A stretch of DNA of 23,645 bases from a virus: positions 1 to 23,645 of the IMG/VR virus record IMGVR_UViG_3300007345_000284; one strand, given 5' to 3'. Of the stretch, positions 1,020-15,750 are shown in pieces. Numbering within the stretch: the stretch's first letter is position 1; each line of letters begins with the position of its first letter. The translations under genes and the position numbers were made by a program. The notes below the pieces were generated by a model. The model made no database searches and had not been told where the DNA came from. It saw only the letters and a list, made by a program, of their open reading frames with translations.

Positions 1020-1033
1020 GACGCTAGAATATG

Positions 1034-1064
1034 CAGGGTGTCACTCGGCCACAGGAGCACCCTG
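1034..1064. terminator. Hairpin between convergent genes
   Basis: CAGGGTG (1034-1040) pairs with CACCCTG (1058-1064). An outer stem ACGCTA (1021-1026) with TAGCGT (1074-1079) could enclose it, and CCCTGA (1060-1065) with TCAGGG (1085-1090) is a competing fold. It lies in the 72-bp gap between the stops of the tail gene and the - strand zinc-finger gene. No T-tract follows, so intrinsic termination is uncertain. A 14-bp repeat copy (1029-1042) overlaps the left arm. Confidence 0.35.
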
Positions 1065-1091
1065 AAAACCCGTTAGCGTGGCTCTCAGGGC

Positions 1092-1316
1092 TTATTCGGG
1101 CTGGTCTGGCCTCTCCTCATACTGCATCTTTTTGTAGCGTCGGTAGGTCCGGCCCCCTTGGGGGGTCCGGCCGACGGATCGGAAGTCATTTATTGGCTGG
1201 TAACAGGAAGGACACAAGTCGACAGTGAACTCCTGACGACGGTGTTCTTTGATGACTACGGTCAAGGCGTCACTTGCACCACACGGGTCGCATACTTTTG
1301 TCGTCACATCTGCCAT
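1092..1316 (-). CDS. Small zinc-finger protein, 74 aa
   Basis: Two CxxC pairs are visible (C9-D-P-C12 and C35-P-S-C38), which could hold one zinc. A strand-rich segment ending in 'EFTVDL' lies between them, and a basic tail with 'GGRTYRRYKK' follows. The central strands loosely recall the N-terminal fold of actinobacterial Lsr2, but I cannot claim homology. The basic tail suggests nucleic-acid binding. The ATG lies 5 bp past the integrase stop codon on the same strand, so it is probably co-transcribed with the integrase. No good ribosome site precedes it. An excisionase or DNA-binding accessory role is possible by position only. Confidence 0.6.
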   Translation of the reverse strand: MADVTTKVCDPCGASDALTVVIKEHRRQEFTVDLCPSCYQPINDFRSVGRTPQGGRTYRRYKKMQYEERPDQPE

Positions 1317-1321
1317 GCCAG

Positions 1322-2338
1322 TTACGTTACCAGTCTCAAGCCTTGAGACGAGTCGCCTTCATCCGTGTCGCGCACATTGGTGGGAAACATCGGATTACCG
1401 GAAAGGATGTTGTTCCTTTCCACCCGCTCAGAGTCAACGCCGATGTAGTGCTCGGTGATCCTGGTGTCGGAGTGGCCAAGCATGGAACTGACGCGCATGA
1501 GGGCACCGCTGTGACCCTCGGCTCGTAGTGCGTTGAACCATGCGCGAGCACCACTGCGACGCAGGGTGTGTTCCCCCTCCCCGGGTGCATCTAGGTCAAG
1601 AGCGTCAAGGGCACGCTTGGCGGGGCGGTAGGGGTGGCTCATGGGCCGCTCAGGTCGCAACGGGGTTGGCCCATCCAGGAGTACCCGCTGCCCGTCGACC
1701 CACGTGAACTTCTGTGAGAACTTGGCTGGCACAAGGAACCAGTTGGGTTGCAGGTCGCCTTGATCCTGCCGGTACCACGACAGGTACCTGTCCAGTTCTT
1801 GCCGTAACTCTTGGCACATCGGGAGCGTGTCCTCGTCTTGTGTCTTGTGCCGGTAAATGTGCACGGTGGCATCAGTGAAGTTGACGTCCTGAATCTGTAG
1901 CGTGCGCAGTTCGCTGCCACGCAGGAACAGGAATAGTCCAAGTGACACAACTGCACGGTCACGTGGATGCTTGGCTGCATCCAACAGGGCAGGAAACTGC
2001 TCCACTGGTACGCGCATACGACTGGTCCGTGGGACCCTGACGTTGGACAGGTTCACGGTGGGATCGAAGTCCCGTGGGACCATGCGTACCCGGCGCATCC
2101 ACTGGAAGAACAGGCGCAGGTTGCTGATGTAGAGGTTTCTGGTCCTGGGTGACCAGTCATACGTTGATAGAAGAGTATCCATATCGGATGCGTTTAAACG
2201 CTTCACGGGCTTGTTGCCCCACACAGGTGCTGCTTTACGCAGCACTTGGGTTCGGTTCTTGATCGTGTTCGGTTTAAGACCAGACGCCTGCAAGTGATCC
2301 ATGTATTGGCTCATCGCGGCTGAGTAAGAGAAATGCAA
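1322..2338 (-). CDS. int: Tyrosine-family site-specific integrase
   Basis: A 338-aa tyrosine recombinase that would catalyse attP x attB recombination for prophage integration and excision. The N-terminal 100 residues form the SAM-like core-binding domain. The catalytic set is in order: R140 (FLRGSEL), K165, H257-x-x-R260 (HTLRRSG), H289 (LGHSD) and nucleophile Y298 (TEHYIG). The first in-frame start is TTG at 2338, preceded by GGAGG with 5-bp spacing (2344-2348 on the opposite strand), so I prefer it to the internal ATG at codon 9. A 14-bp repeat overlaps the start codon and another sits over a TGaTATGCT extended -10, so repressor control is likely. The tRNA-like attP lies immediately upstream. 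A GTTTAAAC site occurs at 2192-2199. Confidence 0.95.
   Translation of the reverse strand: MHFSYSAAMSQYMDHLQASGLKPNTIKNRTQVLRKAAPVWGNKPVKRLNASDMDTLLSTYDWSPRTRNLYISNLRLFFQWMRRVRMVPRDFDPTVNLSNVRVPRTSRMRVPVEQFPALLDAAKHPRDRAVVSLGLFLFLRGSELRTLQIQDVNFTDATVHIYRHKTQDEDTLPMCQELRQELDRYLSWYRQDQGDLQPNWFLVPAKFSQKFTWVDGQRVLLDGPTPLRPERPMSHPYRPAKRALDALDLDAPGEGEHTLRRSGARAWFNALRAEGHSGALMRVSSMLGHSDTRITEHYIGVDSERVERNNILSGNPMFPTNVRDTDEGDSSQGLRLVT
1333..1349. repeat. Perfect 8-bp inverted repeat in the 3' end of int
   Basis: GTCTCAAG and CTTGAGAC flank a single C. It lies within the last integrase codons, just upstream of the next gene's start. It could be an operator-like dyad or a small RNA hairpin affecting that start; no further evidence. 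Confidence 0.4.
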
Positions 2339-2344
2339 GGTATC
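2331..2344 (-). promoter_or_regulatory. 14-bp repeat at the integrase start codon
   Basis: Reads GATACCTTGCATTT on the - strand, one base off the consensus. It spans the gap between the Shine-Dalgarno GGAGG and the TTG start of int, so a bound protein would sit at the very start of the gene. Confidence 0.6.
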
Positions 2345-2355
2345 CTCCGGTGGCT

Positions 2356-2378
2356 AGATTGTTGCAATGCAGCATATC
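2356..2378. promoter_or_regulatory. Overlapping inverted pair of 14-bp repeats at the int promoter
   Basis: The - strand copy at 2365-2378 reads GATATGCTGCATTG, and a weaker + copy at 2356-2369 ends in GTTGCAATG. They share the 5-bp core CAATG. The - strand sequence TGaTATGCT is an extended -10 pointing at int; I see no clear -35. Occupancy would block integrase transcription. A TATCAC-N7-GTGATA inverted repeat (2375-2393) overlaps it and could be an additional operator or arm site. Confidence 0.55.
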
Positions 2379-2410
2379 ACAACATTAGTGATACGTGGGC
2401 ACCTCGGAGG

Positions 2411-2449
2411 ACATTGGTGCCCTGGGGTTCAAGTCCCCCCTCGGACACA
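2411..2449 (+). other. attP: Candidate attP core: 3' portion of a tRNA gene
   Basis: The segment contains a tRNA T-arm: loop TTCAAGT (2428-2434) flanked by GGGG and CCCC. A 7-nt 3' acceptor strand CTCGGAC (2440-2446) and a discriminator A follow. No 5' half of a tRNA is present, so it is not a tRNA gene. Phages using tyrosine integrases often carry the 3' end of their target tRNA in attP to restore the gene after integration. Its place directly between int and the repressor fits. The tRNA species cannot be fixed from the half present; the 5' acceptor in the host should read close to GTCCGAG. Confidence 0.7.
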
Positions 2450-2450
2450 A

Positions 2451-2473: not shown

Positions 2474-2475
2474 GA

Positions 2476-2575: not shown

Positions 2576-3016
2576 ATGGCTCGGGCTAGGTTAGTTCCAA
2601 GCGATCAAGAACTCAAACGGTTACTTGAGCGTGGCTTTACCCACGACGACATAGTTGAACACGTATGGGACAAAGAACGTAAGCGAGTAAGTCGGTCTAC
2701 TGTGTCGGCCGCCATATCTAGGGCAGGACTATCTGAGACACAGAACCGGTACACCGACGAGATACCTTGGCGAGTCAGCGGCAAGCATCTGCGTGACTAT
2801 CAGCCCAGGATGCTGCGGCTCTTAGGCCGCAGGCGTGCGGGAGAAACGCTGAACGATTTGGAAGAGTCACGATTGGACAACTGGCTTCAGATGTTAGAGA
2901 ACGACAACGCGGTCGTCGCATACGATCCCGAAGTCGGATTCGGGTACGTCGACAGGGCACCCGAGGACCCGACGGATGTTCCGATCCATAAGACACACAT
3001 AAGGTTTATTGAGTAA
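2576..3016 (+). CDS. Immunity repressor, L5 Gp71-like
   Basis: A 146-aa DNA-binding protein. Residues about 8-50 form a helix-turn-helix ('LLERGFTHDDIVEHVW', then 'SRSTVSAAISRAG'). The C-terminal half aligns by eye with the mycobacteriophage L5 repressor Gp71: 'PW' then 'RMLRLLGRRRAG', 'WLQMLENDNAVVAYDP' and 'GFGYVDR' match L5's short 'PWD', 'WWKMLRDNDLVLEFDP' and 'GFRYVPR' blocks. L5 Gp71 maintains lysogeny by binding one operator at the early promoter and many dispersed asymmetric stoperators that halt elongation. ATG 2576 is chosen because AAGGAGG lies 5 bp upstream; an earlier in-frame start lacks this. The gene has its own promoter beside attP, between int and the early operon. Confidence 0.82.
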   Translation: MARARLVPSDQELKRLLERGFTHDDIVEHVWDKERKRVSRSTVSAAISRAGLSETQNRYTDEIPWRVSGKHLRDYQPRMLRLLGRRRAGETLNDLEESRLDNWLQMLENDNAVVAYDPEVGFGYVDRAPEDPTDVPIHKTHIRFIE

Positions 3017-3207: not shown

Positions 3208-3221
3208 CAATGCAAGGTAAC
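3208..3221 (-). promoter_or_regulatory. 14-bp repeat upstream of the early operon
   Basis: Reads GTTACCTTGCATTG on the - strand, one mismatch to consensus. It lies about 60 bp upstream of the overlapping pair at the early promoter and opposes the direction of early transcription. Confidence 0.55.
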
Positions 3222-3271: not shown

Positions 3272-3307
3272 GAACCCTTGCATTGCAGGGTACCGTCACT
3301 GTATCTT
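3272..3307 (+). promoter_or_regulatory. Candidate early promoter with two overlapping operator-like repeats
   Basis: TTGCAT (3278-3283) and TATCTT (3302-3307) with an 18-bp spacer form a plausible sigma70-type promoter for the rightward early operon. Two 14-bp repeats in opposite orientation, 3272-3285 (+, GAACCCTTGCATTG) and 3281-3294 (-, GGTACCCTGCAATG), share a 5-bp CATTG core and cover the -35. The same 9-bp offset occurs at the int promoter. This parallels the L5 arrangement, where the operator overlaps the -35 of the early promoter. Confidence 0.55.
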
Positions 3308-3605: not shown

Positions 3606-4397
3606 ATGACCGTGAACATGCTGGATCAGACTGGACGGGACTACCTGTCCTTCTCGTCGCTGTCCACGTACGCCGACTGCGGGGAACGCTTCTATTGGGA
3701 GCGCGTGCGAAGCGTGCGCACCGATCAGGGCTGGTGGCTGCCAGCAGGCTCTGCATTCCATACCGCCAGTGAGTGGCTGGATCGTGGGACCACGCTGACG
3801 CCGGAACTGGTATGGAGCGACGCCTTCCGCATGGAACTGGACCGCCTAGACGAACTGCCTACTAAGGCAGGGGGGCGAGCCTCCAAGGAGTTCCCGAACA
3901 AGGAGGACGCCGACTTCTGGAACGCCAAGGCTCCGCAGTGGTTAGCCGATTACGTCAACTGGCGCAATGAAATGTTCGATGCGGGATGGTCCTGGTTGCA
4001 GGTACGCGGTGAGGACGCCATTGAGGTGCCCGTCACGGCGACGCTGTTCGACGTGGAGGTCAAGGGCTTCATCGACCGGATCATGGTGTCCCCCGATGGG
4101 GAGGTTCACGTAGTCGATATCAAGACCGGCAGCCGTGAGCCAGCCAGCCTGCAACTGAACGTGTACCAGCATCTGCTTGAGGTCGTCCATGACGTGCACG
4201 CCAGCCACGGTGCGTACTACATGGCACGCAAAGGCACCACTACTGAGCCGAAGTCTCTGTCCATCTCCATGGAAACCATTGCCCGGTATTTCGCATCAGC
4301 CAAGAGAGGCATTGAGTCAGAGATTTACCTGCCCAACGTGGGGATGCTGTGCGGGACGTGTGGAGTGCGCCAGCACTGCTCTGTTTTTTCGGAATGA
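3606..4397 (+). CDS. Cas4/RecB-family exonuclease with iron-sulfur cluster motif
   Basis: A 263-aa PD-(D/E)xK nuclease. 'LSFSSLSTYADCGERFYW' at residues 14-31 is the typical Cas4/RecB N-terminal helix. The catalytic core is D157 (GFIDRI), then D171-I-K173 (VVDIKTGS), with a QxxxY motif in 'LQLNVYQHLL' (about 183-190). One N-terminal cysteine (C25) and three near the C-terminus (C249, C252, C258) match the 4Fe-4S pattern of Cas4 and AddB-like nucleases. Expected activity is resection of DNA ends during phage replication or recombination. There is no CRISPR array or other cas gene nearby, so a CRISPR role is not supported; phages of the L5 type carry a similar nuclease next to the repressor. 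An in-frame ATG at 3618 is an alternative start. Confidence 0.9.
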   Translation: MTVNMLDQTGRDYLSFSSLSTYADCGERFYWERVRSVRTDQGWWLPAGSAFHTASEWLDRGTTLTPELVWSDAFRMELDRLDELPTKAGGRASKEFPNKEDADFWNAKAPQWLADYVNWRNEMFDAGWSWLQVRGEDAIEVPVTATLFDVEVKGFIDRIMVSPDGEVHVVDIKTGSREPASLQLNVYQHLLEVVHDVHASHGAYYMARKGTTTEPKSLSISMETIARYFASAKRGIESEIYLPNVGMLCGTCGVRQHCSVFSE

Positions 4398-4409
4398 ATG
4401 CAAGGTATC
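4396..4409 (-). promoter_or_regulatory. 14-bp repeat between the nuclease gene and the next gene
   Basis: A perfect consensus copy, GATACCTTGCATTC on the - strand. It begins at the TGA stop of the Cas4-like gene (4395-4397) and lies in a 35-bp intergenic gap, opposing early transcription. This is the expected location of a stoperator. Confidence 0.65.
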
Positions 4410-4432
4410 ACTAGAGTAGAGAGGAAAACCCA

Positions 4433-4858
4433 ATGAGTGCACCTGACTCAACCGTCATGCAGTTCAACTTCAAGACCCCGAGTGGTGGTTTACACAACAT
4501 CTACGCGGAGTCAGTGGCCGAGGCCACCACTCTCCTGGCGGAGTTCCAGGCCGAGGTAGTGGCTGCCATTTACGAAACCGAAATGAAGATCAATGCCGCT
4601 TACGCGGTCGCCTCACCCAGCAGCACACCCACCTTGCCTGGTGCTGCCAAGGCCGCCCCCGTCGCTGCTGCAACAGCGGCCCCCACAGGGGACGTGCCAC
4701 TTGGACCCGACGGAACTCCACGGATCGCCAAGTCCGGCGTTTCTGCTAAGGGTCCATGGAAAGCATGGATGACGAGCGCCCGTAAGGGTGAACCTGGCTA
4801 TGCCGAACCCATCTGGATTCGTCGTGGCAGTCCAGAGTGGGACACCCACCCGGCGTAG
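4433..4858 (+). CDS. Hypothetical replication-associated protein, 141 aa
   Basis: Two parts are visible: an N-terminal 60-residue alpha/beta region ('MQFNFKTPSGGLHNIYAES', then a helix) and a C-terminal 40-residue module ('KSGVSAKGPWKAWMTS', 'EPIWIRRGSPEWD') joined by an Ala/Pro-rich linker (about 62-85). The C-terminal pattern resembles the small zinc-ribbon tail seen on some phage DNA-metabolism proteins, but here the cysteines are absent. RBS GAGAGG precedes the ATG. Position between a Cas4-like nuclease and a RecA/DnaB-type ATPase suggests a DNA-processing role; function otherwise unknown. Confidence 0.75.
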   Translation: MSAPDSTVMQFNFKTPSGGLHNIYAESVAEATTLLAEFQAEVVAAIYETEMKINAAYAVASPSSTPTLPGAAKAAPVAAATAAPTGDVPLGPDGTPRIAKSGVSAKGPWKAWMTSARKGEPGYAEPIWIRRGSPEWDTHPA

Positions 4859-4872
4859 TCAGGTCCACAGAC

Positions 4873-4929
4873 GGTGCGGGGTCGGGGCTTACCTCCTTTC
4901 ACCCGACCTCGCACCATCCACGAAGGAGG
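4873..4929 (+). promoter_or_regulatory. Hairpin with anti-Shine-Dalgarno loop (possible translational switch)
   Basis: GGTGCGGGGTCGGG (4873-4886) pairs with CCCGACCTCGCACC (4902-4915): 14 bp with a single G-T pair. The 15-nt loop contains CCTCCTT (4892-4898), the exact complement of AAGGAGG (4923-4929), the ribosome site of the zinc-ribbon gene starting at 4934. Loop-to-SD pairing would form an H-type pseudoknot hiding the ribosome site. No T-tract follows, so it is not an ordinary terminator. Confidence 0.5.
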
Positions 4930-4933
4930 CAAC

Positions 4934-5038
4934 ATGAGCGACAAGTGGACGTGCCCCCACTGTGGGGCCGAGGTCAAGCCGTCAGGCAAATACCTCATGC
5001 GTTGTTTAAACACCGAATGTGATCGGCAGTATTCGTGA
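4934..5038 (+). CDS. Mini zinc-ribbon protein, 34 aa
   Basis: A very short gene with AAGGAGG 4 bp before the ATG. It encodes two cysteine knuckles: C7-P-H-C10-G and C24-x4-C29 (CLNTEC). The whole protein is one treble-clef or zinc-ribbon unit ending soon after the second knuckle. Its stop overlaps the GTG start of the ATPase gene (GTGA), implying translational coupling. Such mini zinc ribbons may be accessory subunits for replication or transcription proteins; no specific function is visible. A GTTTAAAC site (5004-5011) lies within the coding sequence. Confidence 0.75.
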   Translation: MSDKWTCPHCGAEVKPSGKYLMRCLNTECDRQYS

Positions 5039-5832
5039 GGCTTCTCAGCCGAGCCATTACTCAGCGGGACGTGAGCGCCCCGGCGCTGCCCAACATGTTC
5101 ACGTCACTGCACGAGCGTGGCATATCCATCCGTAGCGGAGAGGTGTCGATGCTTGCTGGCCTGCCAGCCGCAGGCAAGTCGATGTTCGCCCTCGCCCTTG
5201 CTGTCCGCAGCAAGGTCCCCACGATCTACCTGTCCGCTGACTCCCACCTGCACACACAGTCGATGCGTCTGATTGCACTGGCGACAAAGACTGAACAGTC
5301 TCAGGTGGAGCAGATGATGGAGGACAAGGAGTGGGCAAAGGAGTCGCTGCTTGAACAAGACTTCATGCGTTGGTCGTTTAACTCAGCACCCACGGCCAAC
5401 GACATTCACGAGCAGGTCGAAGCACACATCACTCTTACCAGCCGACCACCGGAACTATTCATCGTCGACAACCTGACCGACTGCGTGGTCGATGGTGACG
5501 AGTTCGGTGGCATGAGGTCATTTATGAAAGACCTCAAGTTCGCTGCACGAGAGTTCGGCATGGCTGTGCTGGTGCTGCATCACACGTCCGATGCGTACAC
5601 CCTGGGTTACAACCAGTGCCCACCACGTCAGTCTTTGCAAGGCAAAGTTTCACAGACGCCAGCCCTGGTGCTGACGGTGCGTGCACAAGAGGACGGGTTT
5701 CTTGCTGTGTGCCCGGTGAAGAACAGGTATGGCCGCTCTTCCCCTGACGGCAACGATGCGACTTGGTTCACGTATGACCCTGCCCGATGCGTAGTCGAAG
5801 AGATACCCGGTCAGGAGTTGCTACATGTCTAG
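5035..5832 (+). CDS. RecA/DnaB-type ATPase, probable replicative helicase
   Basis: 265 aa. Walker A is GLPAAGKSM (42-50). The Walker B region is 'LFIVDNLTD' (141-149), followed by 'AVLVLHHTS' (177-185), a sensor-like strand typical of RecA-fold hexameric helicases. The protein lacks the N-terminal primase-interaction domain of cellular DnaB, as do the short DnaB-like helicases of Cluster A-type phages. The GTG start overlaps the zinc-ribbon stop, and the downstream nuclease gene overlaps its 3' end by 8 bp, so these form a coupled replication cluster. Expected role: DNA unwinding at the phage fork. A KaiC- or RadA-like recombination ATPase is an alternative. Confidence 0.85.
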   Translation: MRLLSRAITQRDVSAPALPNMFTSLHERGISIRSGEVSMLAGLPAAGKSMFALALAVRSKVPTIYLSADSHLHTQSMRLIALATKTEQSQVEQMMEDKEWAKESLLEQDFMRWSFNSAPTANDIHEQVEAHITLTSRPPELFIVDNLTDCVVDGDEFGGMRSFMKDLKFAAREFGMAVLVLHHTSDAYTLGYNQCPPRQSLQGKVSQTPALVLTVRAQEDGFLAVCPVKNRYGRSSPDGNDATWFTYDPARCVVEEIPGQELLHV

Positions 5833-6187
5833 CGCGTCTAAACGCAAGGGGTCGATGTATGAGAACCAGTTGGAGCAGTGGTTCATTGATAACGGCTACG
5901 ACACTCAAAGGCTGCGACTATCTGGCAAGGAAGATCAGGGCGACCTACACACGCGCCTGTCTGACAAGTCATATCTGGTGTGGGAAGCCAAGAATCGCAA
6001 GCAAACCAATCTTGCAGAATGGGTACGTGAGGCTGACCTAGAGGCAGCCAACCATGAGGTCAAACGCAAGGTGGAGTCTTGGCCTGCCGTCGTGCACAAG
6101 AAACGCATGGGTTCTGTTGGGGAGTCCTACGTCACGATGCCATTGGCCACGTTCATGGAGTTCTTGCGAGCGAAGGGGGTCGTGTGA
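5825..6187 (+). CDS. PD-(D/E)xK nuclease, Holliday-junction-resolvase-like
   Basis: 120 aa. The motif order E14 (YENQLE), G39-D40 (QGDLH) and E54-A-K56 (VWEAKNR) is the catalytic signature of small PD-(D/E)xK enzymes such as archaeal Hjc-type resolvases. 'RKGSMYENQLEQWFIDNGY' resembles their N-terminal helix. It likely resolves branched DNA before packaging or during recombination. Its start overlaps the ATPase gene by 8 bp and its TGA overlaps the GTG of the primase zinc-domain gene. One-base variant GTCTAAAC of the palindromic repeat occurs at 5836-5843, just inside the start. Confidence 0.8.
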   Translation: MSSASKRKGSMYENQLEQWFIDNGYDTQRLRLSGKEDQGDLHTRLSDKSYLVWEAKNRKQTNLAEWVREADLEAANHEVKRKVESWPAVVHKKRMGSVGESYVTMPLATFMEFLRAKGVV

Positions 6188-6588
6188 ATGACAACGACCT
6201 GGACCTGGACATTTACGCGATCCTCGAACACTACGGCTGGACGCTCCCCGCTCCCCGAGGACCGTGGGTCAACGTCCGCTGCGGTGAACATGATGATGCT
6301 CATGCGTCGGCCACGATTAGTGCTGATGCGGGGGCAGTCATCTGCCACGCCTGCGGTTTCAAAGGCAGCGCACTCTCCATCGTCATGCGAAAGGAAGGTT
6401 TAAACGCACGTGATGCTTACAGCCACGCAGCGCGACTCTCTGGAAGAGACGACGCTGACCTACGCTTCTCATCTGCCACAAGCCCTCGCCTATCTGGACA
6501 GTCGGGGAATCTCAGAGCGGACCGCCCGTACGTACCGCCTCGGCTACGTGCCTCCGAATCACAGTCTCCCCGGCGACGAACAGTATGA
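6184..6588 (+). CDS. DNA primase, zinc-binding half
   Basis: The GTG at 6184 overlaps the upstream stop as GTGA. The N-terminal 80 residues carry the CHC2-type zinc motif C33-x2-H36 ... C54-x2-C57 ('RCGEHDD', 'CHACGFKGSA'), used by DnaG-type primases to recognise template. The remaining 50 residues (low-complexity Arg/Ser/Pro) lie in the region where the Toprim gene is read in another frame and are probably not structured. The primase is thus encoded by two overlapping genes, as in L5-type phages. Either the two subunits assemble, or a +1 frameshift joins them. Confidence 0.8.
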   Translation: MNDNDLDLDIYAILEHYGWTLPAPRGPWVNVRCGEHDDAHASATISADAGAVICHACGFKGSALSIVMRKEGLNARDAYSHAARLSGRDDADLRFSSATSPRLSGQSGNLRADRPYVPPRLRASESQSPRRRTV

Positions 6589-9569: not shown

Positions 9570-9975
9570 ACACTTGCCTGTCATCACCTTGCACCGGGTC
9601 CCATTCAATGTCGCCGCACGTGACGAACTCGCACGACGCAATGTCACCCTGTTCCCCTTCCTTGATGACCACGTACTCGTCGCTCAAGCACTGCGGACAG
9701 GTCAGGTTTAAACGCACTGGCTCGTATGCTCGTTCGATAAGTTCTTCCGCTGTCGGCTGGTTGTTGGCGGTGTCATCTACGGGAGTCGGCAGTCGCAGTA
9801 GCGACCCGCACGATGGGCACATCCCGTCTGTCAGGTACAGACCAGGGAGCCTTGTGTCGGGATCGAACACGACGCACGCATAGAACATCGTGTTCCCGCA
9901 CAAGCACTCATGGGTTGGTCCTGCCCACCGATGATCGTCAACAATCTTGCCCATTGAGAATGGGTGATCTAGCAC
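9568..9975 (-). CDS. Zinc-binding protein with three cysteine knuckles
   Basis: 135 aa if started at GTG 9975, which overlaps the upstream TAG and has GGGGGAC at suitable distance; ATG 9954 is an alternative. It carries 'CLCGNTMFYAC', 'CPSCGS' and 'CPQC', plus two later cysteines, enough for two zinc ribbons. The layout suggests two duplicated ribbons with an acidic linker ('TPVDDTANNQPTAEELIE'). Such multi-ribbon phage proteins often contact nucleic acid or RNA polymerase, but no specific role is evident. A GTTTAAAC repeat lies at 9706-9713. Confidence 0.7.
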   Translation of the reverse strand: MLDHPFSMGKIVDDHRWAGPTHECLCGNTMFYACVVFDPDTRLPGLYLTDGMCPSCGSLLRLPTPVDDTANNQPTAEELIERAYEPVRLNLTCPQCLSDEYVVIKEGEQGDIASCEFVTCGDIEWDPVQGDDRQV

Positions 9976-10445
9976 GTCCAACGTCCCCCGTACCAGTGGA
10001 ACTTCCCTGCCCACGGCCGATCGGCATGGTGCCCGTCAAGGGTGCGTCTAAACGCACTCGTCTGGAGCCACGGGTCCCACTTGTGCACTGATGTTGCTCG
10101 CAACTCACGCGCAAATGCTCGCTGCTCTTTCATGGATTCGGTAGAAAGATACGTTGCAATGTCACCACTGCGTACCATCCAATAGGTCGCTCCATTGGCC
10201 AATGGCTGGTTCATTTGGTATGCACCCAGGTACTTCCGTGTTGGATTGCGGGACCACCAGTGGCTGTTGCTCTCACGCATACGCACGCAATGCTCATACT
10301 GCACGTAGTAGTGCGGCAGCGGGTAGCCACTCGGGTCGGTTGAGGACTTATGGTTTGCACTGGCTTCGGGTGCCATGAACATGGACGCACCCAAGATTAC
10401 GGGGAGCACTACGGCTGCTACTCGGTCAGACCTACGTTTAAACAT
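9969..10445 (-). CDS. Exported lysozyme/transglycosylase-like protein
   Basis: 158 aa. The N-terminus has basic residues followed by a hydrophobic stretch and a signal-peptidase-like end ('AAVVLPVILGASMFM', then 'APEASA'). The mature part has 'CVRMRESNSHWW' and 'YLGAYQMNQ', recalling the Glu-containing catalytic helix and glycine-rich strand of actinobacterial transglycosylase/Rpf-like domains. It probably acts on host peptidoglycan outside the membrane. The second ATG (10445) is preferred because GAGGAAGG lies about 8 bp upstream, versus 2 bp for the first at 10451. A GTTTAAAC repeat overlaps this start codon. A perfect 14-bp repeat lies inside at 10148-10161. Confidence 0.65.
   Translation of the reverse strand: MFKRRSDRVAAVVLPVILGASMFMAPEASANHKSSTDPSGYPLPHYYVQYEHCVRMRESNSHWWSRNPTRKYLGAYQMNQPLANGATYWMVRSGDIATYLSTESMKEQRAFARELRATSVHKWDPWLQTSAFRRTLDGHHADRPWAGKFHWYGGRWTC
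10148..10161 (+). promoter_or_regulatory. Perfect 14-bp repeat copy
   Basis: GATACGTTGCAATG on the + strand, within the lysozyme-like gene and opposing its transcription. No intergenic promoter is nearby, so if functional it acts as a roadblock rather than as a promoter operator. Confidence 0.6.
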
Positions 10446-10740
10446 CGGCATTACCTTCCTCGTCGTGCTTGTTTATTTGCAGGATCAGGGCGTTTGCGTT
10501 CTTGCTGGCTGCAAAGACCACGCCCTTGTCGATTGCTTTCTTGGCTGCGTTCTTGGTAATGAATGGGCCGTGCAGGTGGACGCATACACCTGGGTCAACG
10601 ACCAGCACGTACCAGTCGGTCCTCTCGGCACGAAGTCGATCTACTGTTCGTAAGACGTCAACCGCCAGGTCGTTGGCACTAGGCGCGGGACTGTCCAGGA
10701 TCGTGGCTATGGCGTCACGTTCTTTCGGCCGGATAGCCAT
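10438..10740 (-). CDS. Hypothetical protein, 100 aa
   Basis: ATG 10740 overlaps the WhiB-like gene's TAA by one base, and its 3' end overlaps the next gene by a few bases. The N-terminal half is helical ('IRPKERDAIATILDS', 'AVDVLRTVDRLRAER'). The C-terminal half reads as a small alpha/beta unit ('DWYVLVVDPGVCVHLHGPFI', then 'KNAAKKAIDKG') similar in style to small phage proteins that pair 'GPFATK' with a helix. Function unknown; coupling to the WhiB gene suggests a joint regulatory role. Confidence 0.7.
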   Translation of the reverse strand: MAIRPKERDAIATILDSPAPSANDLAVDVLRTVDRLRAERTDWYVLVVDPGVCVHLHGPFITKNAAKKAIDKGVVFAASKNANALILQINKHDEEGNADV

Positions 10741-11375
10741 TAACTGACCTCGTTAAGTTTCTTGGTGGCGAGCCGTGCTTTCGCACGCTGCTGTTCTTTC
10801 GCCTCGGGGGATTCAAACCGGGCGTAGTAGCACTGCGAACAGTTGATGCTGTAAACGTGGCGGTACGGGTCATCTACTGGCTGTGCGACTCGCACAAAGT
10901 CGTAGTCCGGCTTGAGGTCGTGACCGTTCTTGCACTTCTTAGGTGACTGGTGACGCCAGTCCTCGTTTAAACCAAACCAGTGGGTGTTCGTAGGTTCGAC
11001 GACGCTGACCTTGAGTCGTCGTCGTATGTCTGCTCTTTCCTCCGCTGTTGTGCCTGCCCAGAAACCGAACTCTTCTTGGTGCACTGACCAGTTGAGGCAC
11101 TGCTTGAGGATCGGGCACGTGCTACACATCCCCTGCATCTCGGCTAGTTGCCTGTTGGTGGGGTACTCGGTGAAGAACAGGTCGTACTCCCCCGCGCACG
11201 CCGCATGTTCGTAGTCGATGGTCGGCATCAACGCTGCAAGGAGCCAGCCGTAGCGTTCGTGTAAACGCCACGACCAGCGCCTCGGCCAGACGCCCAGGTG
11301 ATTGGGTTTCGTTGCTCCCGGTGGTTGCTCAAACGCGATCCGGTCATGTGACTTGCGTCCCAAGGCTGCTCCCAA
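10740..11375 (-). CDS. whiB: WhiB-family regulator fused to a second cysteine module
   Basis: Up to 211 aa. The WhiB domain has the four cluster-binding cysteines C60, C84, C87 and C93 (C-x23-C-x2-C-x5-C) followed by GFWAG, the turn equivalent to the family's GVWGG. WhiB proteins bind 4Fe-4S and act with the primary sigma factor. A C-terminal extension of about 75 residues adds 'KKCKNGHDL' and 'INCSQCYYAR', a C-x2-GH ... C-x2-C unit like those of phage HNH or zinc-ribbon proteins. The start is uncertain: TTG 11375 opens the frame, TTG 11363 has GGGAG upstream, and ATG 11228 would give a minimal WhiB. A 14-bp repeat lies 8 bp upstream of the longest start. Confidence 0.85.
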   Translation of the reverse strand: MGAALGRKSHDRIAFEQPPGATKPNHLGVWPRRWSWRLHERYGWLLAALMPTIDYEHAACAGEYDLFFTEYPTNRQLAEMQGMCSTCPILKQCLNWSVHQEEFGFWAGTTAEERADIRRRLKVSVVEPTNTHWFGLNEDWRHQSPKKCKNGHDLKPDYDFVRVAQPVDDPYRHVYSINCSQCYYARFESPEAKEQQRAKARLATKKLNEVS

Positions 11376-11383
11376 CTTAGATG

Positions 11384-11397
11384 GATACGTTGCAATC
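11384..11397 (+). promoter_or_regulatory. 14-bp repeat between GGCT-like and WhiB genes
   Basis: Perfect consensus match GATACGTTGCAATC on the + strand, in the 26-bp gap between the stop of the cyclotransferase-like gene and the WhiB-like start. It faces leftward transcription. Candidate stoperator. Confidence 0.65.
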
Positions 11398-11401
11398 AGA
11401 T

Positions 11402-11833
11402 CTAACGACCGAACTTGGTCCAGTCGCCATGGCTAATGGACAGGAATCCAACCTGCGGATCGGGGAACACAAACGCAAGCGCGTCGATGCTCGCAATCTC
11501 CGGTGCCAGGTCGTCCAACTGGACGCTCACCCACTCGGTCACGTACCCGGCACGCTCTTCCATGCCACGCACCTGCGCGAGCACCTGGGGGTCACTGATC
11601 CAGGCCACCTCACCCACGACACTCTTCTGCCAACTGTCCTGGGAGCGCACCATCCATGGATACGCTGCATTGAGGTCGTTTACACGCAACTCATACTGCG
11701 CGACAGAAGGATCGGTCTGCGCTGGCACCAGGTCGATGCCGTCCAGGAAGTGCGGGTTCAACGGCTCCCCCGTACGCAACGTGCCGTACACAAACAACGG
11801 CACCGGTCGATTCCTACTCGGTGTGATTCTCAC
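11402..11833 (-). CDS. Gamma-glutamylcyclotransferase-like (AIG2/GGCT fold) protein
   Basis: 143 aa beginning with GTG, preceded by GAAAGGGG. 'LFVYGTLRTGE' (13-23) is the diagnostic P-loop-like glycine motif of the GGCT/AIG2 fold. 'MEERAGY' (91-97) holds the acidic residue expected for catalysis, and 'VVGEVAWIS' (72-80) is the conserved central strand. Family members cleave gamma-glutamyl amides to give 5-oxoproline; BtrG does this in butirosin synthesis. In the same operon are an amidoligase and a class II glutamine amidotransferase, which suggests it removes or tailors a gamma-glutamyl group. Overlaps the upstream gene by 20 bp. Confidence 0.82.
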   Translation of the reverse strand: MRITPSRNRPVPLFVYGTLRTGEPLNPHFLDGIDLVPAQTDPSVAQYELRVNDLNAAYPWMVRSQDSWQKSVVGEVAWISDPQVLAQVRGMEERAGYVTEWVSVQLDDLAPEIASIDALAFVFPDPQVGFLSISHGDWTKFGR

Positions 11834-12077
11834 TGCTACCCCTTTCTACGTCGGCTATTCCTAGGTCGTGCATGGCGGTCACGAATGCGTCGTCGTCCAT
11901 CCATTCGTGGATCGACAGAGGATCGCTACCGTCTACCAGGTGGTACCGCCATGCGATCGCACGCTTCACGTCAGCGCGTGCATCCTTGGTCCACTGAGCC
12001 TTGGCCAGCAGGCGAAGCACGTGGGACGCATCACGCCCCACGTACTCGCTGCCACTGGCAAACGTCAGTCGAATCAT
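11814..12077 (-). CDS. Hypothetical protein, 87 aa
   Basis: The ATG at 12077 lies one base after a 14-bp repeat that forms a TGgTACCCT extended -10 (12079-12092); no ribosome site is seen. The product begins 'MIRLTFASGSEYVGRDASHV', then a helix with 'LLAKAQWTKDARADVKRAIA', and an acidic C-terminal region with 'SIHEWMDDDAFVTAMHDLG'. No family recognised. Its 3' end overlaps the cyclotransferase-like gene, so the two are translated together. Confidence 0.7.
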   Translation of the reverse strand: MIRLTFASGSEYVGRDASHVLRLLAKAQWTKDARADVKRAIAWRYHLVDGSDPLSIHEWMDDDAFVTAMHDLGIADVERGSSENHTE

Positions 12078-12078
12078 G

Positions 12079-12092
12079 GATAGCAGGGTACC
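12079..12092 (-). promoter_or_regulatory. 14-bp repeat upstream of the 87-aa gene
   Basis: Reads GGTACCCTGCTATC on the - strand, about two mismatches. It ends one base from the ATG and overlaps TGgTACCCT, an extended -10-like element. The arrangement mirrors that at 9556-9569. Confidence 0.45.
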
Positions 12093-12112
12093 ACACCTGC
12101 GCAACAGACTCA

Positions 12113-13135
12113 TTACTGCGACTCGCCCCACATCAACTGTTCGTCAGCCTCTGCCATCATCTCAGCGACTGCCTCCCGGTCATCCCACTCCCACTCAGAG
12201 GGAGACACGGGCGTGACCTCGGGAGCATTAGTGTAAACACCATTGGCGAAGTCATACCCTGCAATGACGTGCGGCTTAGCAGTGCGACGCGCCTTGCCCT
12301 TGCCCTTGGACTTGGCCTTGCCCTTTGCCCTGGACTTGGCAGCACCGGTACCCAGGGTCCAGCGGTCGGACTCTTTGGACTTGGGACGTGATGCGTTTAC
12401 ACGCACCCGTGGTGCAGCAGGCACCGGCTCGAACAACTCGCTCGAAACGATGACGCCCTGTTGAATCTGCAAGTACGTACCCTCGGGTAGGTCTTGCGTC
12501 CACTCCAACTTCACACCTGCCGCATCGACTGCTTCCTTGAGAATGTGCATCGTTGATCCGTAGACGAACGATCCATTCTTGGTCTGCCCCACCGCTAACG
12601 GTGAGCCATGACCACGTGCCAGGTGCAGGGTTTCCACACTGTCCCGGGTGTCGTACCAGGCCAGAGCAATGCGACCGTGCAGCATCTCTAACGCATCGGT
12701 CACCGGCAGGTCACCGTGTGCCAGCAGTGCGAAGATTGCTTCACTGTCGACCTCACCATGACGGTCGACGTCATCGCCCAGCATGGCGAACAGGTCGTCG
12801 TCGTGCCCGTAGTCCAGGGTCCCGTTGTGGGTGCCAATAATCGTGCCCTGTTTGATCGGGTGATTATTGAGCGGGTTAGCGGGTGAACCCTTGGTCGCAT
12901 ACCGGGTATGCAGGATGCGCGACGTCGCCTCGGACTTGTGGTGCCCGTGCTTGACCCACGTCGATGCGGGCACTGCGGCTTTCTTACTGCGCACTTTGCC
13001 GTTACTGAGCCACGCTGCACCACTGGCGTGCTTGCCACGTGCCTCACATTCCATGAGCAGATACCCGGCCAACAGGTCGGGGTCGATCTGCCCGTGATCC
13101 TTGGGGTTCAAGCAGAACCCACCGATTCCACACAT
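12113..13135 (-). CDS. Class II glutamine amidotransferase with basic tail
   Basis: 340 aa from ATG 13135 (AAAGGACGG upstream), so that Cys2 becomes the N-terminal nucleophile after Met removal (MCGIGGF), as in Gn-AT-II enzymes. Other family motifs: R33-G34 (EARGKHASG), H76-T-R78-Y-A-T, N91-H92-P93 (LNNHPI), N104-G105 (THNGTL) and D130-S-E132. These bind glutamine and release ammonia. The amidotransferase domain ends near residue 230. A Lys/Arg/Gly/Ala-rich stretch (about 260-285) follows, then an acidic tail, so no synthase domain is fused. Ammonia or glutamyl transfer partners are probably the amidoligase and GGCT-like proteins of this operon. Confidence 0.88.
   Translation of the reverse strand: MCGIGGFCLNPKDHGQIDPDLLAGYLLMECEARGKHASGAAWLSNGKVRSKKAAVPASTWVKHGHHKSEATSRILHTRYATKGSPANPLNNHPIKQGTIIGTHNGTLDYGHDDDLFAMLGDDVDRHGEVDSEAIFALLAHGDLPVTDALEMLHGRIALAWYDTRDSVETLHLARGHGSPLAVGQTKNGSFVYGSTMHILKEAVDAAGVKLEWTQDLPEGTYLQIQQGVIVSSELFEPVPAAPRVRVNASRPKSKESDRWTLGTGAAKSRAKGKAKSKGKGKARRTAKPHVIAGYDFANGVYTNAPEVTPVSPSEWEWDDREAVAEMMAEADEQLMWGESQ
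12253..12266 (+). promoter_or_regulatory. 14-bp repeat inside the amidotransferase gene
   Basis: CATACCCTGCAATG on the + strand, one mismatch, opposing transcription. GTGTAAAC variants of the palindromic motif flank it at 12231 and 12395. Confidence 0.5.
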
Positions 13136-13166
13136 AACTACCGTCCTTTCGTTTCTTACCGATAAT

Positions 13167-13180
13167 GAATGCAGTGTATC
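13167..13180 (-). promoter_or_regulatory. 14-bp repeat and probable promoter of the amidotransferase gene
   Basis: GATACACTGCATTC on the - strand. With the preceding GTG it forms TGaTACACT, a good extended -10. The transcript would begin about 20-25 bp before the AAAGGACGG ribosome site. No clear -35. Confidence 0.5.
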
Positions 13181-13248
13181 ACACCTGTATGTCAGGCATG
13201 TTGTAAGCAGAGATGTTGACCAACGTCGGATAACGACGGACGAGGAAA

Positions 13249-13278
13249 CAGAGGGTGCGTTTAAACGCGCACCCTCTG
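13249..13278. terminator. Perfect 11-bp hairpin with GTTTAAAC in the loop
   Basis: CAGAGGGTGCG (13249-13259) pairs perfectly with CGCACCCTCTG (13268-13278) around the loop TTTAAACG. It covers the stop codon of the 215-aa gene on the - strand. Only TTT follows on that strand, so it may stabilise an mRNA 3' end, attenuate transcription, or form a cruciform presenting the repeat. Confidence 0.55.
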
Positions 13279-13908
13279 CTCCTGCCACCAGCCACTTCCC
13301 AGGTGACGGACCTCCACCCGTTGCACCTCATACGTCGGTGCCGGTGGTGTCTCGGTCCGTTGCTCCGGCTCCCACCACAACACGTCCAGGACCCACGAAC
13401 CACCGTTGCGGTCGGGTCGGTGCGTCACTGCGGGACGTAACCGTTGCGGGTGCCGGTCGGGATGCCAAGTGCGGTCCAGAATCGACACGGCGTTTAAACC
13501 CATGTGACCACTCGGCCGCCACTCGTACCGCTCCTGGAAACGACGCATCACCTCGTTCTGAAAACGGTGCACGATCTCCGACACGGTGTTGAGGTTGCGC
13601 GTTTCTTCGCTCCCGCTCCGCATTCTCCCGCTGTGAGGTTGGAACATCCACGACACTTGCCAATAGGGTTGGCGGTCATGCGACACGCGACGTGTCACCG
13701 ACACGTCGGCCCAGCGTGGCCTTTCCATCGCCCACCACCGACGGTTCCGATCCCACACCGAATAACCGTCAAGTGCCTCGGGAATCACCAACTGCCACCG
13801 TTGATACCGGGTGAACGAATCACCCTGCACGTCAACATTCCGGTCCTCTGCCCGATGCCACCGGAGATGGTCGGCGGCCACAATGTCCTGCCCGATACGC
13901 CTAGGCAT
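13261..13908 (-). CDS. Hypothetical protein, 215 aa
   Basis: A Trp/Arg-rich protein ('RRWWAMERPRWADV', 'YWQVSWMFQPHSG', 'WVLDVLWWEPEQR') with alternating strands and one central helix ('NTVSEIVHRFQNEVMRRFQ'). No signal peptide, membrane segment or known catalytic motif. RBS AAGGGGAG precedes ATG 13908, and a GTTTAAAC repeat fills the exact gap between ribosome site and start. It lies between the amidoligase and amidotransferase genes, so it may act in the same pathway, for example as a substrate or adaptor; this is inference from position. Confidence 0.7.
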   Translation of the reverse strand: MPRRIGQDIVAADHLRWHRAEDRNVDVQGDSFTRYQRWQLVIPEALDGYSVWDRNRRWWAMERPRWADVSVTRRVSHDRQPYWQVSWMFQPHSGRMRSGSEETRNLNTVSEIVHRFQNEVMRRFQERYEWRPSGHMGLNAVSILDRTWHPDRHPQRLRPAVTHRPDRNGGSWVLDVLWWEPEQRTETPPAPTYEVQRVEVRHLGSGWWQEQRVRV

Positions 13909-13916
13909 GTTTAAAC
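13909..13916. promoter_or_regulatory. GTTTAAAC between ribosome site and start codon
   Basis: The palindrome abuts the ATG at 13908 and follows AAGGGGAG on the - strand. It is the clearest case where the motif occupies a possible control position instead of the interior of a gene. Confidence 0.5.
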
Positions 13917-14000
13917 ACTCCCCTTCGTTGTCGATCTAGTCACCGATCTGGCAACCATTCGGGAACCCCGACCCGGTGAGCCGGGGTCCCCTGATGGTGG

Positions 14001-14885
14001 TCAGACGCGCTGTAACGAACGCAGACGCGCCAGCCGGTCCGTGGTGGCCGGTGCCACCGGGTCGGTCGGTGCAGGTGCAGACGGTGCCGGTGATCCGGTC
14101 CCCCGACGCTCCGCCCATCGACGGTGATCCTCTGAGAGGAACCCCATGTCGACCAACCAGGACAGGTAGTCGCCATTCGTCGTGCGATACGTTGCATTCG
14201 ACTCCGCGTGCAGACGGGTGGCACGGATGTATCCGACCCATCCCATGATCTTGCGGAAGTTGATCGAACCGTCACGTTGCCGGACCTCAAGCGTTCCTCG
14301 CTCAAGGAACCATTGCGTATTGACCGCGTAGCCGTGAGACGACGCCACGCCCGTCAGTGCCCGGGCGTCACCCGATTGGGCGGCCGTTACGAACCGATCC
14401 CATGCGGACCCCGACAGGACCGCGCACCATTCGGAATACCGGCCGCCACGTTCCCGACCGGACCGAACCAGGGTGTCGGTCACGTTCTGGCGAGAGGACC
14501 AGATACGTCCCCACCTGGCGAGAGCATCCTGCCCGATGGATGCCATTTCCATGTGCACGTGCAAACCGGCCGTGCGACGTGCACTCTGTGGCCGGAGGAC
14601 CCGTGCGCCAATCTCATTCAGCACCCGGGTGACCGTCGCCAGGTCCTCAAGATGACGCGGGTCATCCCACGTCAGGACCGGTGACACCACCTCAACTTTC
14701 CACGGAAGGCGGCCATTCGTCGGAATGGTCACGTCATCTTTCACCTGCCATTTCGTGTAGTCCCGACCGGAGTACGAAGCGGGAATCGCAGGGATGTTTA
14801 AACCCGCTGCATTCAACGCATCTGCCACCTGCGAATGGCGCAACGGTGACGCCATTTCCAATTCGATCCCAAACGTGAGCGCCAT
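14001..14885 (-). CDS. Amidoligase (COOH-NH2 ligase, glutamine-synthetase fold)
   Basis: 294 aa. Motifs of the Amidoligase_2 family are clear: E8-x-E10 (FGIELEMA), 'KVEVVSPVL' (63-71), 'GLHVHME' (107-113, metal/ATP-site HxH), 'RERGGRYSEW' (about 144-153) and 'GTLEVRQRDGSINFRKIMGW' (197-216). The family is predicted to couple ATP hydrolysis to amide-bond formation between carboxylates and amines, by analogy with glutamine synthetase and GCS. GGAGGTGG lies upstream of ATG 14885, 2 bp beyond the previous stop. Substrates are unknown. Co-occurrence with class II GATase and GGCT-like genes supports a peptide or amide conjugation pathway. The last 45 residues are a Pro/Ala-rich tail. Confidence 0.88.
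   Translation of the reverse strand: MALTFGIELEMASPLRHSQVADALNAAGLNIPAIPASYSGRDYTKWQVKDDVTIPTNGRLPWKVEVVSPVLTWDDPRHLEDLATVTRVLNEIGARVLRPQSARRTAGLHVHMEMASIGQDALARWGRIWSSRQNVTDTLVRSGRERGGRYSEWCAVLSGSAWDRFVTAAQSGDARALTGVASSHGYAVNTQWFLERGTLEVRQRDGSINFRKIMGWVGYIRATRLHAESNATYRTTNGDYLSWLVDMGFLSEDHRRWAERRGTGSPAPSAPAPTDPVAPATTDRLARLRSLQRV
14186..14199 (+). promoter_or_regulatory. Perfect 14-bp repeat inside the amidoligase gene
   Basis: GATACGTTGCATTC on the + strand, facing leftward transcription. Candidate stoperator. Confidence 0.6.
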
Positions 14886-14887
14886 GA

Positions 14888-15454
14888 CTAAGCCACCTCC
14901 GTCAGACGGAGCGAGCACGGAATGCCGGTCCCATTCGGATGATCCCGGCCGCACAGAGGTGCGCCAGATTCGATCTGAGACGACGACAGGCGAACCCGCA
15001 CATCGTCATGGATGCTGCACGACACCAAACGCATCCGACTCCCGGTCTGTCGACGTCGACCCGATTGGATCGCTTCGGCCGGGTAGTCCCCGACCTCCGC
15101 CACGTAGTCATCCACCTGCCGGAAGATGCCTTCGGCGCGAGCGTCCGTCGGGTTCACTGTCCACCCGTCGACGATCCATCCACGTGACCGGAGGAACCCT
15201 GCCCTACGGTCCGTCAATCGACCTGTGCCGACGATCCGTACTCTGTCGATCAGGTACGCCAGGACCGTCGCCACCTCTGCCGACTCTGCCAACAAAGGCG
15301 ACACAAGCAGCACAGTGCGCCCATCTTCGTCACGGCCGATATCGGCCACACGTCCCGACCTGGCACGCTGCGCCGGGTAGGACGGAAGAACCGCGAGCGG
15401 CTCTCCATTCGTCATGCGGCTCGCCAAACCGGCAAGCCATTGTTCCCGATTCAT
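14888..15454 (-). CDS. Degenerate SprT-like (metallopeptidase-fold) protein lacking HExxH
   Basis: 188 aa from ATG 15454 (AAAGGGG upstream). The N-terminal 'MNREQWLAGLA', the strand 'VLLVSPLL', and the C-terminal 'GDYPAEAIQSGRRRQTGSRM' plus 'IESGAPLC' match the layout of the SprT-like putative metallopeptidases of actinobacteria and their phages. In that family the residues after 'SPLL' form a helix with HELVHA. Here the equivalent helix reads 'VLAYLIDRVRIVG', so both zinc-binding His and the catalytic Glu are gone. The C-terminal zinc knuckle is also only partly kept. It is therefore likely a non-catalytic binding protein. An in-frame upstream ATG at 15559 with GGAGG is an alternative start, but the family begins at the Met chosen here. 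Confidence 0.6.
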   Translation of the reverse strand: MNREQWLAGLASRMTNGEPLAVLPSYPAQRARSGRVADIGRDEDGRTVLLVSPLLAESAEVATVLAYLIDRVRIVGTGRLTDRRAGFLRSRGWIVDGWTVNPTDARAEGIFRQVDDYVAEVGDYPAEAIQSGRRRQTGSRMRLVSCSIHDDVRVRLSSSQIESGAPLCGRDHPNGTGIPCSLRLTEVA

Positions 15455-15750
15455 CGGGTCCCCTTTCGTTGTGTCGGACCACCTGTCCGATTCCCACCAT
15501 TGCAAGGTACACCATGCCCGATGTTCGGCACGTTGAAACGCACACATTCGCCCGATCATTTCTCCCACCTCCGATCCCGCCAGGTGGGTGCACTGACTGT
15601 CCTACCGGCCGTTCCTGGCATTTCGTGGCACATGGTGGGTGGCCGGGTCGATTCGTGTCGGAGGTGGTCGGGATGGGTGGGGAACTTGAGCGGCAATCGA
15701 CCGGTGTCGGGATCGAAAGGATGGAAGGAGAGGTGGTGTAAACGATCGAC
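15455..15750. other. Leader of the leftward operon, no convincing gene
   Basis: This GC-rich segment has long overlapping frames on both strands, but none with a recognisable protein. It contains the 14-bp repeat at 15498-15511 and a GTGTAAAC variant at 15736-15743. It probably holds the promoter of the leftward operon. Confidence 0.5.
15498..15511 (-). promoter_or_regulatory. 14-bp repeat upstream of the leftward operon
   Basis: TGTACCTTGCAATG on the - strand, two mismatches, about 45 bp before the first gene of the leftward operon. TACCTT could serve as a -10. Likely a control point for the whole leftward operon. Confidence 0.45.

Follow-up and report, generated by a model that had tools for sequence, protein, structure and literature searches.

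A dispersed asymmetric DNA word beside an L5/R4-type repressor gene in an uncultured phage genome

The stretch of viral DNA analysed here, the 23,645-nt window of IMG/VR virus record IMGVR_UViG_3300007345_000284 (hereafter the window), encodes at positions 2576-3016 a two-domain immunity repressor of the L5/R4 type and carries, dispersed over its early and middle genes, an asymmetric 14-bp word matching the pattern GATACSYTGCAWTS. It is very probable that the phage is temperate and that its repressor binds these dispersed sites, blocks initiation of transcription, stops RNA polymerase and silences the prophage.

Count and placement of the dispersed word

When both strands of the window were scanned, five perfect matches to GATACSYTGCAWTS were found against a shuffle mean of 0.01, and 14 matches with at most one mismatch against a shuffle mean of 0.05 (largest value 1 in 100 shuffles). 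An earlier note on this DNA had proposed just such a 14-bp word; the word is real and so is the excess of perfect matches, of which the note counted four. The same word read backward, used as a control, gave no match in the window at one mismatch; at two mismatches it gave 2, and the forward word 17. With up to three mismatches 28 matches were observed and 14.3 expected, so that this weak tail is half chance. The earlier note had also proposed a motif search, and one given no prior pattern did recover the word in the window, with 16 sites and a score of 50.9 (shuffled controls 11.5-14.2), as the second motif after TGCGTTTAAAC. In the longer contig G001 (37.4 kb, 99.85-99.92% identical over the shared parts) the word was not among the top 3 or top 5 motifs of the de novo search; the pattern itself matches there 14 times at no more than one mismatch. 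The refined motif, nnksAATGCArsGTATCnCwnn, has 17 sites and a score of 134.7, where 100 shuffles had a mean of 18 and a maximum of 72.5. A matrix trained on the rightward half found seven sites in the leftward operon, and one trained on the leftward half found six in the rightward half (0.5 expected in each case; single shuffles up to 3-4); neither found any in the late part.

Chance or base composition would account for half of the matches at up to three mismatches. For the sites at no more than one mismatch it is refuted by the count of 14 against 0.05, the empty backward control and the transfer of matrices between halves, and the probability left to it is practically nil. Eight matches in L100, a locus from another metagenome, argue in the same direction, though its DNA, 94-96% identical to the window, is close enough for sites to be shared by descent.

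The 17 sites of Table 1 comprise these 14 together with three (1029, 12079 and 15498) picked by hand from the 28 matches at up to three mismatches; the other 11 were dropped, one of them, 17536, lying in the late part. The 17 sites of the refined motif are a different set, which includes 2163 (inside int) and 5635, both weak or doubtful and excluded from the table, and does not include 3281 and 15498. Fourteen sites in 23.6 kb is below the usual number of about 20-30 in L5/R4-type systems, with the caveat that the window genome is possibly incomplete. Strands are given for the reading AATGCA-GTATC, opposite to the GATAC reading of the earlier note.

With genes taken from a hand list of open reading frames (ORFs), junctions account for 16.5% of positions 1020-15600 but hold nine of the 14 sites (p 8e-5); adding the three weaker sites gives 12 of 17 (p 1e-6). 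A second, trained gene caller, used as a check after a first quick caller had proved unreliable, places 10 of 14 (background 27.1%, p 7e-4) and 12 of 17 (p 2e-4) at junctions. The late part contains none of the 14 sites (p 0.001), in agreement with the absence from the late operon claimed earlier. The note's other placements fared unevenly. Sites are indeed present at the int start (2331), near int (2365) and at the junctions at 4396 and 11384; that at 1029 is only a weak match with three mismatches, and a site at the repressor promoter is unsupported because the interval from 2379 to 2576, where the repressor gene begins, holds no match even with three mismatches. A site at 3281 does lie where the note had drawn the -35 of an early promoter. 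The promoter candidate itself, TTGCAT-18-TATCTT at about 3278-3307, was recognised by eye only; a promoter scan found nothing at that position, and it returned fewer promoter-like sites (2) than in shuffles (6.5).

The repressor and the words of its relatives

The product of 2576-3016, described earlier as Gp71-like, is an L5/R4-type two-domain immunity repressor by the concurrence of family, profile and model matches. It matches phrog_3929 (3e-24) and phrog_357 (1.9e-7), both named transcriptional repressor in PHROG, and the repressor of Rhodococcus cluster CA matches phrog_357 at 3.9e-76. A tblastn search with the repressor found 172 Streptomyces phage records at E ≤0.01, the best long matches being about 43% identical, and gp29 of R4 is annotated as 'similar to L5 gp71'. 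A profile built from the window protein and six relatives matches the repressor-DNA complex 7r6r over residues 10-140, covering both domains (E 1.1e-7). With a structural model made from 11 sequences (predicted local distance difference test, pLDDT, 85.5), Foldseek ranked 7r6r first (E 1.9e-3, probability 1.00), and VIA gave Z 9.3 and a root-mean-square deviation of 2.4 over 84 residues of the Stoperator domain (58-143); the next-best chain reached Z 6.0 over residues 4-52 only. The match to this domain is specific, because DALI gave the authors of 7r6r no structural homologue of it (PMC9283540). The DNA-contacting residues R45 and R108 are essential in the TipsytheTRex repressor (PMC9283540); in our own reading of the profile alignment R40 and R99 of the window protein align with them, and among ten relatives R40 is kept in nine and R99 in seven. 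The repressors of G007, G008 and G009 have Q, E or A at the equivalent of R99.

The earlier note held that a word equally frequent in actinophages lacking the repressor would speak against the proposal. At no more than one mismatch, neither the other repressor-homologue loci (1.54 Mb) nor the whole relatives (0.27 Mb) held a copy of GATACSYTGCAWTS; the terminase relatives (0.82 Mb) gave 5 matches, and 12 to the backward control. The word was thus not equally frequent in these sets, a comparison that did not extend to a set of phages known to lack the repressor family: 6 of the 17 terminase relatives searched for the repressor carry one, and many of the others are fragments.

Several relatives have dispersed words of their own. 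G019 (repressor 56% identical to that of the window) has GCAACATGKCAC at 14-17 sites; G022 (43%) has TGCAACCMTRACACA at 16-17 sites, with scores up to 90; and G024 (56%) has a weak word, ATGCAACATKRCA, at 10 sites. In G019, G022 and, weakly, G024 the words share the TGCAA half, and most of the recognition helix is shared as well. When each matrix was run on each genome, at a threshold for which about one match is expected per shuffled target, the resulting table was near block-diagonal: the window matrix gave 15 sites in the window, 11 in L100 and 7 in G019, and the Streptomyces matrices gave 24-35 sites on their own genomes. A set of 78 repressor-homologue loci, none shorter than 9 kb and five of them annotated Streptomyces phages, was also compared, although its members are not all independent. 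The top de novo score exceeded twice that of shuffled controls in 58 loci and the top word had a CACA/TGTG half in 56; the latter count is a loose text match on consensus strings, and several loci come from identical or near-identical phages (results for L034 and L035 do not differ). Loci whose top word has no such half include L026-L029, L042 and L054. As a positive control, the same method applied to the Rhodococcus phage CosmicSans gave GTCTATTGTCAAGT at 27 sites, in agreement with the published Rasputin consensus (PMC13313380). Some relatives thus carry words of their own, and there word and repressor appear to vary together, as in cluster A: clearly in G019, G022 and the five Streptomyces phages, weakly in G024. 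The co-variation foreseen in the earlier note is seen in these and not in G003 (48% identical), G004 and G005 (58%) and G021 (45%), in which the searches tried detected no stoperator-like network. In G003 this is so even though the recognition helix is similar to that of the window (65% over residues 36-52).

Candidate words in these network-free relatives were considered and rejected. The repressors of G004 and G005 are 100% identical, and GCCTGGTATGTCAC, present five times in G004, is absent from G005; CCSGACTATTTCGC, found in both, is mostly intragenic, with 6 of its 13 G004 sites in the longest late gene; TGCAAGAACCCRWC of L209 (9 sites, score 19.4, controls up to 18.0) was not recovered on the whole contig G021; and the strongest word of G004 (score 49.6) is the ribosome-binding-site-like ACCCCTTAGGAG. 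As observations in their own right, a single block of G004 (19086-22799, locus L189) holds six plus-strand copies of ACCCCTTAGGAG[AG], several of them standing just 5' of ATG, in a start-associated-like manner; and G004 and G005 are 99.98% identical outside a differing middle block (19463-27757 in G004), in which the five GCCTGGTATGTCAC copies all lie on one strand. A likeness between the window word and that of Likavirus (AAGGTnnCAC) was also set aside, as the words would have to run in opposite directions relative to transcription in the two groups; for eight Streptomyces-type motifs its column-shuffle p was 0.005-0.047 in L016, L030, L031 and L044 and 0.06-0.72 in the others. In G007-G009, with repressors 38% identical and no R99 equivalent, words are mostly weak. 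That of G008, STATTACTACNKTA, has 9 sites and a score of 35.3 (controls 8-11), the sites lying within 13593-14240 and 4715-39591; four of the nine are no more than 160 bases from the repressor gene (13750-14190), and it is possible that this is the operator word of the G008 repressor homologue.

Polarity of the sites and their gene setting

In the relatives with clear networks the word tends to run parallel to transcription: in 7 of 8 sites of G019 (the 14-wide list gives 7 of 10) and in 7 of 9 of G022. Pooled with the window the total is 24 of 31 (p 0.003); with the 14-wide figure for G019 it is 24 of 33 (p 0.014). The G019 count excludes sites at and beyond the repressor and treats two small plus-strand ORFs in the leftward block as spurious. 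The G022 count excludes sites that lie at contig ends, between blocks or beside the repressor, and takes the overlapping sites 30569 and 30577 as one (8 of 10 parallel if counted as two). In the five annotated Streptomyces phages the ...CACAC word runs against transcription at most sites: in R4, leaving out sites near the repressor, at 7/7 late, 8/8 early and 10/10 leftward sites, and in the other four with 0-2 exceptions per block. Operon limits for these phages were taken from GenBank annotation because the second gene caller chose the wrong strand for R4. Likewise, GTCTATTGTCAAG runs against transcription at 27 of 27 sites in CosmicSans, one of them past the last annotated gene. Along transcription, the Streptomyces words therefore read GTGTG... 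and the CosmicSans word CTTGAC..., and by these polarity readings each group examined has its conserved half upstream. This agrees with the published model in which RNA polymerase meets the helix-turn-helix (HTH) domain first, and with the reported failure of reversed sites to stop elongation (PMC9283540).

Several observations weigh against a stoperator network in the window. Its own polarity is loose, with AWTGCA...GTATC parallel to transcription in 10 of 14 operon sites (p 0.18), in contrast to the near-perfect polarity of R4 and CosmicSans; without the two sites having two mismatches the figure is 10 of 12 (p 0.04). Four or five sites, all in the leftward operon, are intragenic. In the cross table, counts outside the blocks rise to 5 against an expectation of about 1; the window matrix matches 5 times in G008 and 3 times in Daudau. 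In the repressor, R40 is not conserved in Streptomyces homologues, and a tyrosine occupies the position equivalent to K81, another DNA-contacting residue of TipsytheTRex. The network-free relatives described above belong here too. The stoperator-type interpretation of the earlier note finds support in the family of the repressor, in the asymmetry, dispersal and junction placement of the sites and their absence from the late operon, and in the words of similar length that replace them in some relatives; their polarity is looser than in the known cases examined.

The word might instead be bound by another phage regulator, such as the WhiB-like protein or the sigma-like product of 8104-8802, or itself be a promoter element, the company of the repressor then being incidental. 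Read as GATACnnTGCAWT, all 14 sites at no more than one mismatch contain TAnnnT, an actinobacterial -10; six sites (2331, 2365, 9556, 12079, 13167 and 15498) point at a downstream start codon or leader; a sigma-like gene is at hand; and relatives with similar repressors do not have the word. As promoter elements, however, ten sites would point against their own operon, no -35 partner was found by eye, and promoter-like sites are rarer than in shuffles. The network-bearing relatives also share both the TGCAA half and most of the recognition helix, a point that G003, with its similar helix and no network, partly offsets. On balance this alternative is unlikely, though not negligible. Much less probable still is that the sites are start-associated or otherwise functionless repeats, or replication iterons. 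Start-associated sequences are known in cluster K phages, and many sites of the window are near starts, but they occur in both orientations, four or five are inside genes, the word has no ribosome-binding motif, and the sites are spread over 13 kb and not clustered at one origin-like place.

The preferred reading remains that of a repressor acting at dispersed sites. The repressor of a temperate phage would bind about 14-17 asymmetric sites of 13-16 bp, probably as a monomer through its HTH and Stoperator domains; in the direction of transcription the predicted site reads AWTGCARSGTATCnC. It would block initiation at the early promoter (3281) and probably also at int. Where parallel sites stand at junctions or within genes of the two early/middle operons it would stop RNA polymerase, and the outcome would be a silenced prophage and the exclusion of relatives with the same word. 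The analysis shows the family and two-domain architecture of the protein, the number, position and asymmetry of the sites, and the related but different words of some relatives; binding, the monomeric state, the elongation block, immunity and the service of reversed sites solely as operators are inferred. The four reversed operon sites (9556, 12079, 13167 and 15498) and the two int sites each stand a short way 5' of a gene start that is annotated or likely (our own choice in two cases), and read towards their gene they contain TAnnnT; they may act on initiation, a suggestion to which the promoter tool lends no support.

A broader reading, possible though doubtful, is that such networks are gained and lost while the repressor persists, and that the network of the window is partly built. 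The first part is based on repressors of 45-58% identity occurring with and without a dispersed network; the second on the restriction of sites to early and middle operons, the presence of some inside genes and the six reversed sites near starts, a position from which they could affect initiation alone. If it is true, promoter block and elongation block are separable in nature by site polarity. The near relatives without a network offer an opening to study the gain or loss of dispersed regulatory networks.

Table 1. Sites of the dispersed word and neighbouring features of the window
Position	Strand	Feature	Basis
1029..1042	+	Weak site, 3 mismatches, after last late gene	Pattern scan
1322..2338	-	Tyrosine integrase; start TTG 2338, or 2302 by second gene caller	Phage_integrase 8.3e-12
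2331..2344	+	Site at integrase start, reversed relative to int	Pattern scan, ≤1 mismatch
2365..2378	+	Site between int and phage attachment site (attP), reversed relative to int	Pattern scan, ≤1 mismatch
2396..2450	+	Likely core of attP; comprises variable arm, T arm and acceptor end of a tRNA-Leu-like gene (its 3' part)	By eye
2576..3016	+	Immunity repressor, 146 amino acids; N-terminal HTH with recognition helix at about 40-49, Stoperator domain at about 58-143	
3208..3221	+	Site upstream of early operon	Pattern scan, ≤1 mismatch
3281..3294	+	Likely operator inside putative early promoter	Pattern scan; promoter by eye only
3606..8802	+	Early operon: exonuclease, DnaB, RusA-like, primase, phosphoesterase and sigma-like genes	
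4396..4409	+	Perfect site at a gene junction (exonuclease stop at 4397, following start at 4433)	Pattern scan
8113..8126	+	Site at phosphoesterase/sigma-like gene junction	Pattern scan, ≤1 mismatch
8889..15559	-	Leftward operon: WhiB, glutamine amidotransferase, amidoligase and unknown genes	
9453..9466	-	Site in leftward operon, inside short ORF 9412-9555 (ORF dropped by second gene caller)	Pattern scan
9556..9569	+	Reversed site directly before start codon of minus-strand short ORF 9412-9555	Pattern scan
10148..10161	-	Perfect site inside ORF 9969-10451	Pattern scan
11384..11397	-	Perfect site between ORF 11402-11833 and WhiB gene	Pattern scan
11659..11672	-	Perfect site inside ORF 11402-11833	Pattern scan
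12079..12092	+	Reversed site, 2 mismatches, before by-eye start 12077; intragenic with gene callers' start 12113	
12253..12266	-	Site inside glutamine-amidotransferase-like gene	Pattern scan, ≤1 mismatch
13167..13180	+	Reversed site upstream of start at 13135	Pattern scan, ≤1 mismatch
14186..14199	-	Perfect site inside amidoligase-like gene	Pattern scan
15498..15511	+	Reversed site, 2 mismatches, upstream of likely start 15454 (second gene caller)	

The WhiB-like, glutamine-amidotransferase-like and amidoligase-like proteins of the leftward operon are encoded in its part 10740-15559. ARAGORN found no whole tRNA in the attP region, and an exact 33-mer of the attP/tRNA word had no match in genome_contigs. 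Repressor alignment A3 found no relative in genome_contigs, and megablast of the window against phages gave no match.

A second repeated word, the palindrome GTTTAAAC, is statistically stronger than the stoperator-like one, with 16 copies in this window of 57% GC against 0.14 expected, at positions from 841 to 23213 (for example 2192, 9706 and 13492) and in early and late genes alike. Counted with its one-base variants it occurs 27 times, 23 of them inside ORFs. There are 23 copies in G001 (0.24 expected), 12 in L100 and 10 in the 11.3 kb of L211, whose repressor is 36% identical. A literature search on GTTTAAAC as a palindrome returned nothing relevant by title. The palindrome seems to differ between related phages: the terminase relative G010 (L201 and L202; contig of L138) has 70 TTTAAA in 27 kb and ATTTAAAT 12 times against 0.17 expected, and TTTAAA is found 0 times in G003 and once in G004, both of which are rich in CCTCGAGG/GCTCGAGC.

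Comparison with known systems

Repressor-stoperator systems have been published for cluster A (PMC6550527), Gordonia A15 (PMC5559632), Rhodococcus CA (PMC13313380) and R4-like Streptomyces phages (PMC10276819, citing Smith 2013). Searched by title, the stoperator literature yielded no paper on uncultured phages, and a search for freshwater immunity repressors likewise none; in the published stoperator accounts, to the extent that their text was available and with subscription literature outside the search, the TGCAA...CAC word was not found. The system is of a known kind; its DNA word and virus group look new.

Close known counterparts are the R4-like Streptomyces phages (Arquatrovirinae, cluster BD), whose repressors are 36-43% identical to that of the window. 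In the five examined, one dominant asymmetric 14-bp word per phage is dispersed over 22-29 sites, and in the annotation of Aaronocolus and Daudau the genes after the repressor are, as here, those for exonuclease, DnaB, primase and a sigma-like protein. They differ in having another recognition helix and another word, with the GTGTG half upstream; in carrying sites in the late operon as well; in their near-perfect polarity; and in their integrase, which is annotated as a serine enzyme in four of the five records and is of the tyrosine type in the window. Cluster A phages, represented by L5 and TipsytheTRex (7r6r), share the two-domain repressor and asymmetric 13-14 bp sites at promoters and junctions (PMC9283540, PMC6550527), but have 20-30 sites (PMC6550527) against the 14-17 of the window, and another word, as judged from published words, L5 itself being outside the scan. 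Compared with cluster A, polarity in the window looks looser and its late operon has no site. Rhodococcus CA, represented by CosmicSans (PMC13313380), likewise has a dispersed word and a repressor near exonuclease, DnaB, primase, phosphoesterase and sigma-K genes, but its word reads ACTTGACAATAGAC along transcription, with one polarity at 27 of 27 sites, and its integrase is of the serine type. The metagenomic phages G019 and G022 (IMG/VR 3300042301_003057 and 3300012668_000094) share a near-identical recognition helix (VSRSTVSAAL) and the TGCAA half; they differ in the second half of the word (GCAACATGKCAC and TGCAACCMTRACACA, respectively), and G022 has sites in its late block.

Along transcription, then, the conserved half would be CTTGAC in Rhodococcus CA, GTGTG in Streptomyces BD and TGCAA in the window; in cluster A, from the shared TCAAG end of the published words, it is probably CTTGAC as well. 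Judged from the DNA, the window and its network-bearing relatives would represent a new word class, in which the TGCAA half lies upstream; in the window some sites are reversed near gene starts. A well-studied but taxonomically narrow immunity mechanism would thereby be extended to uncultured phages, and a further class of word added to those of cluster A, Streptomyces BD and Rhodococcus CA.

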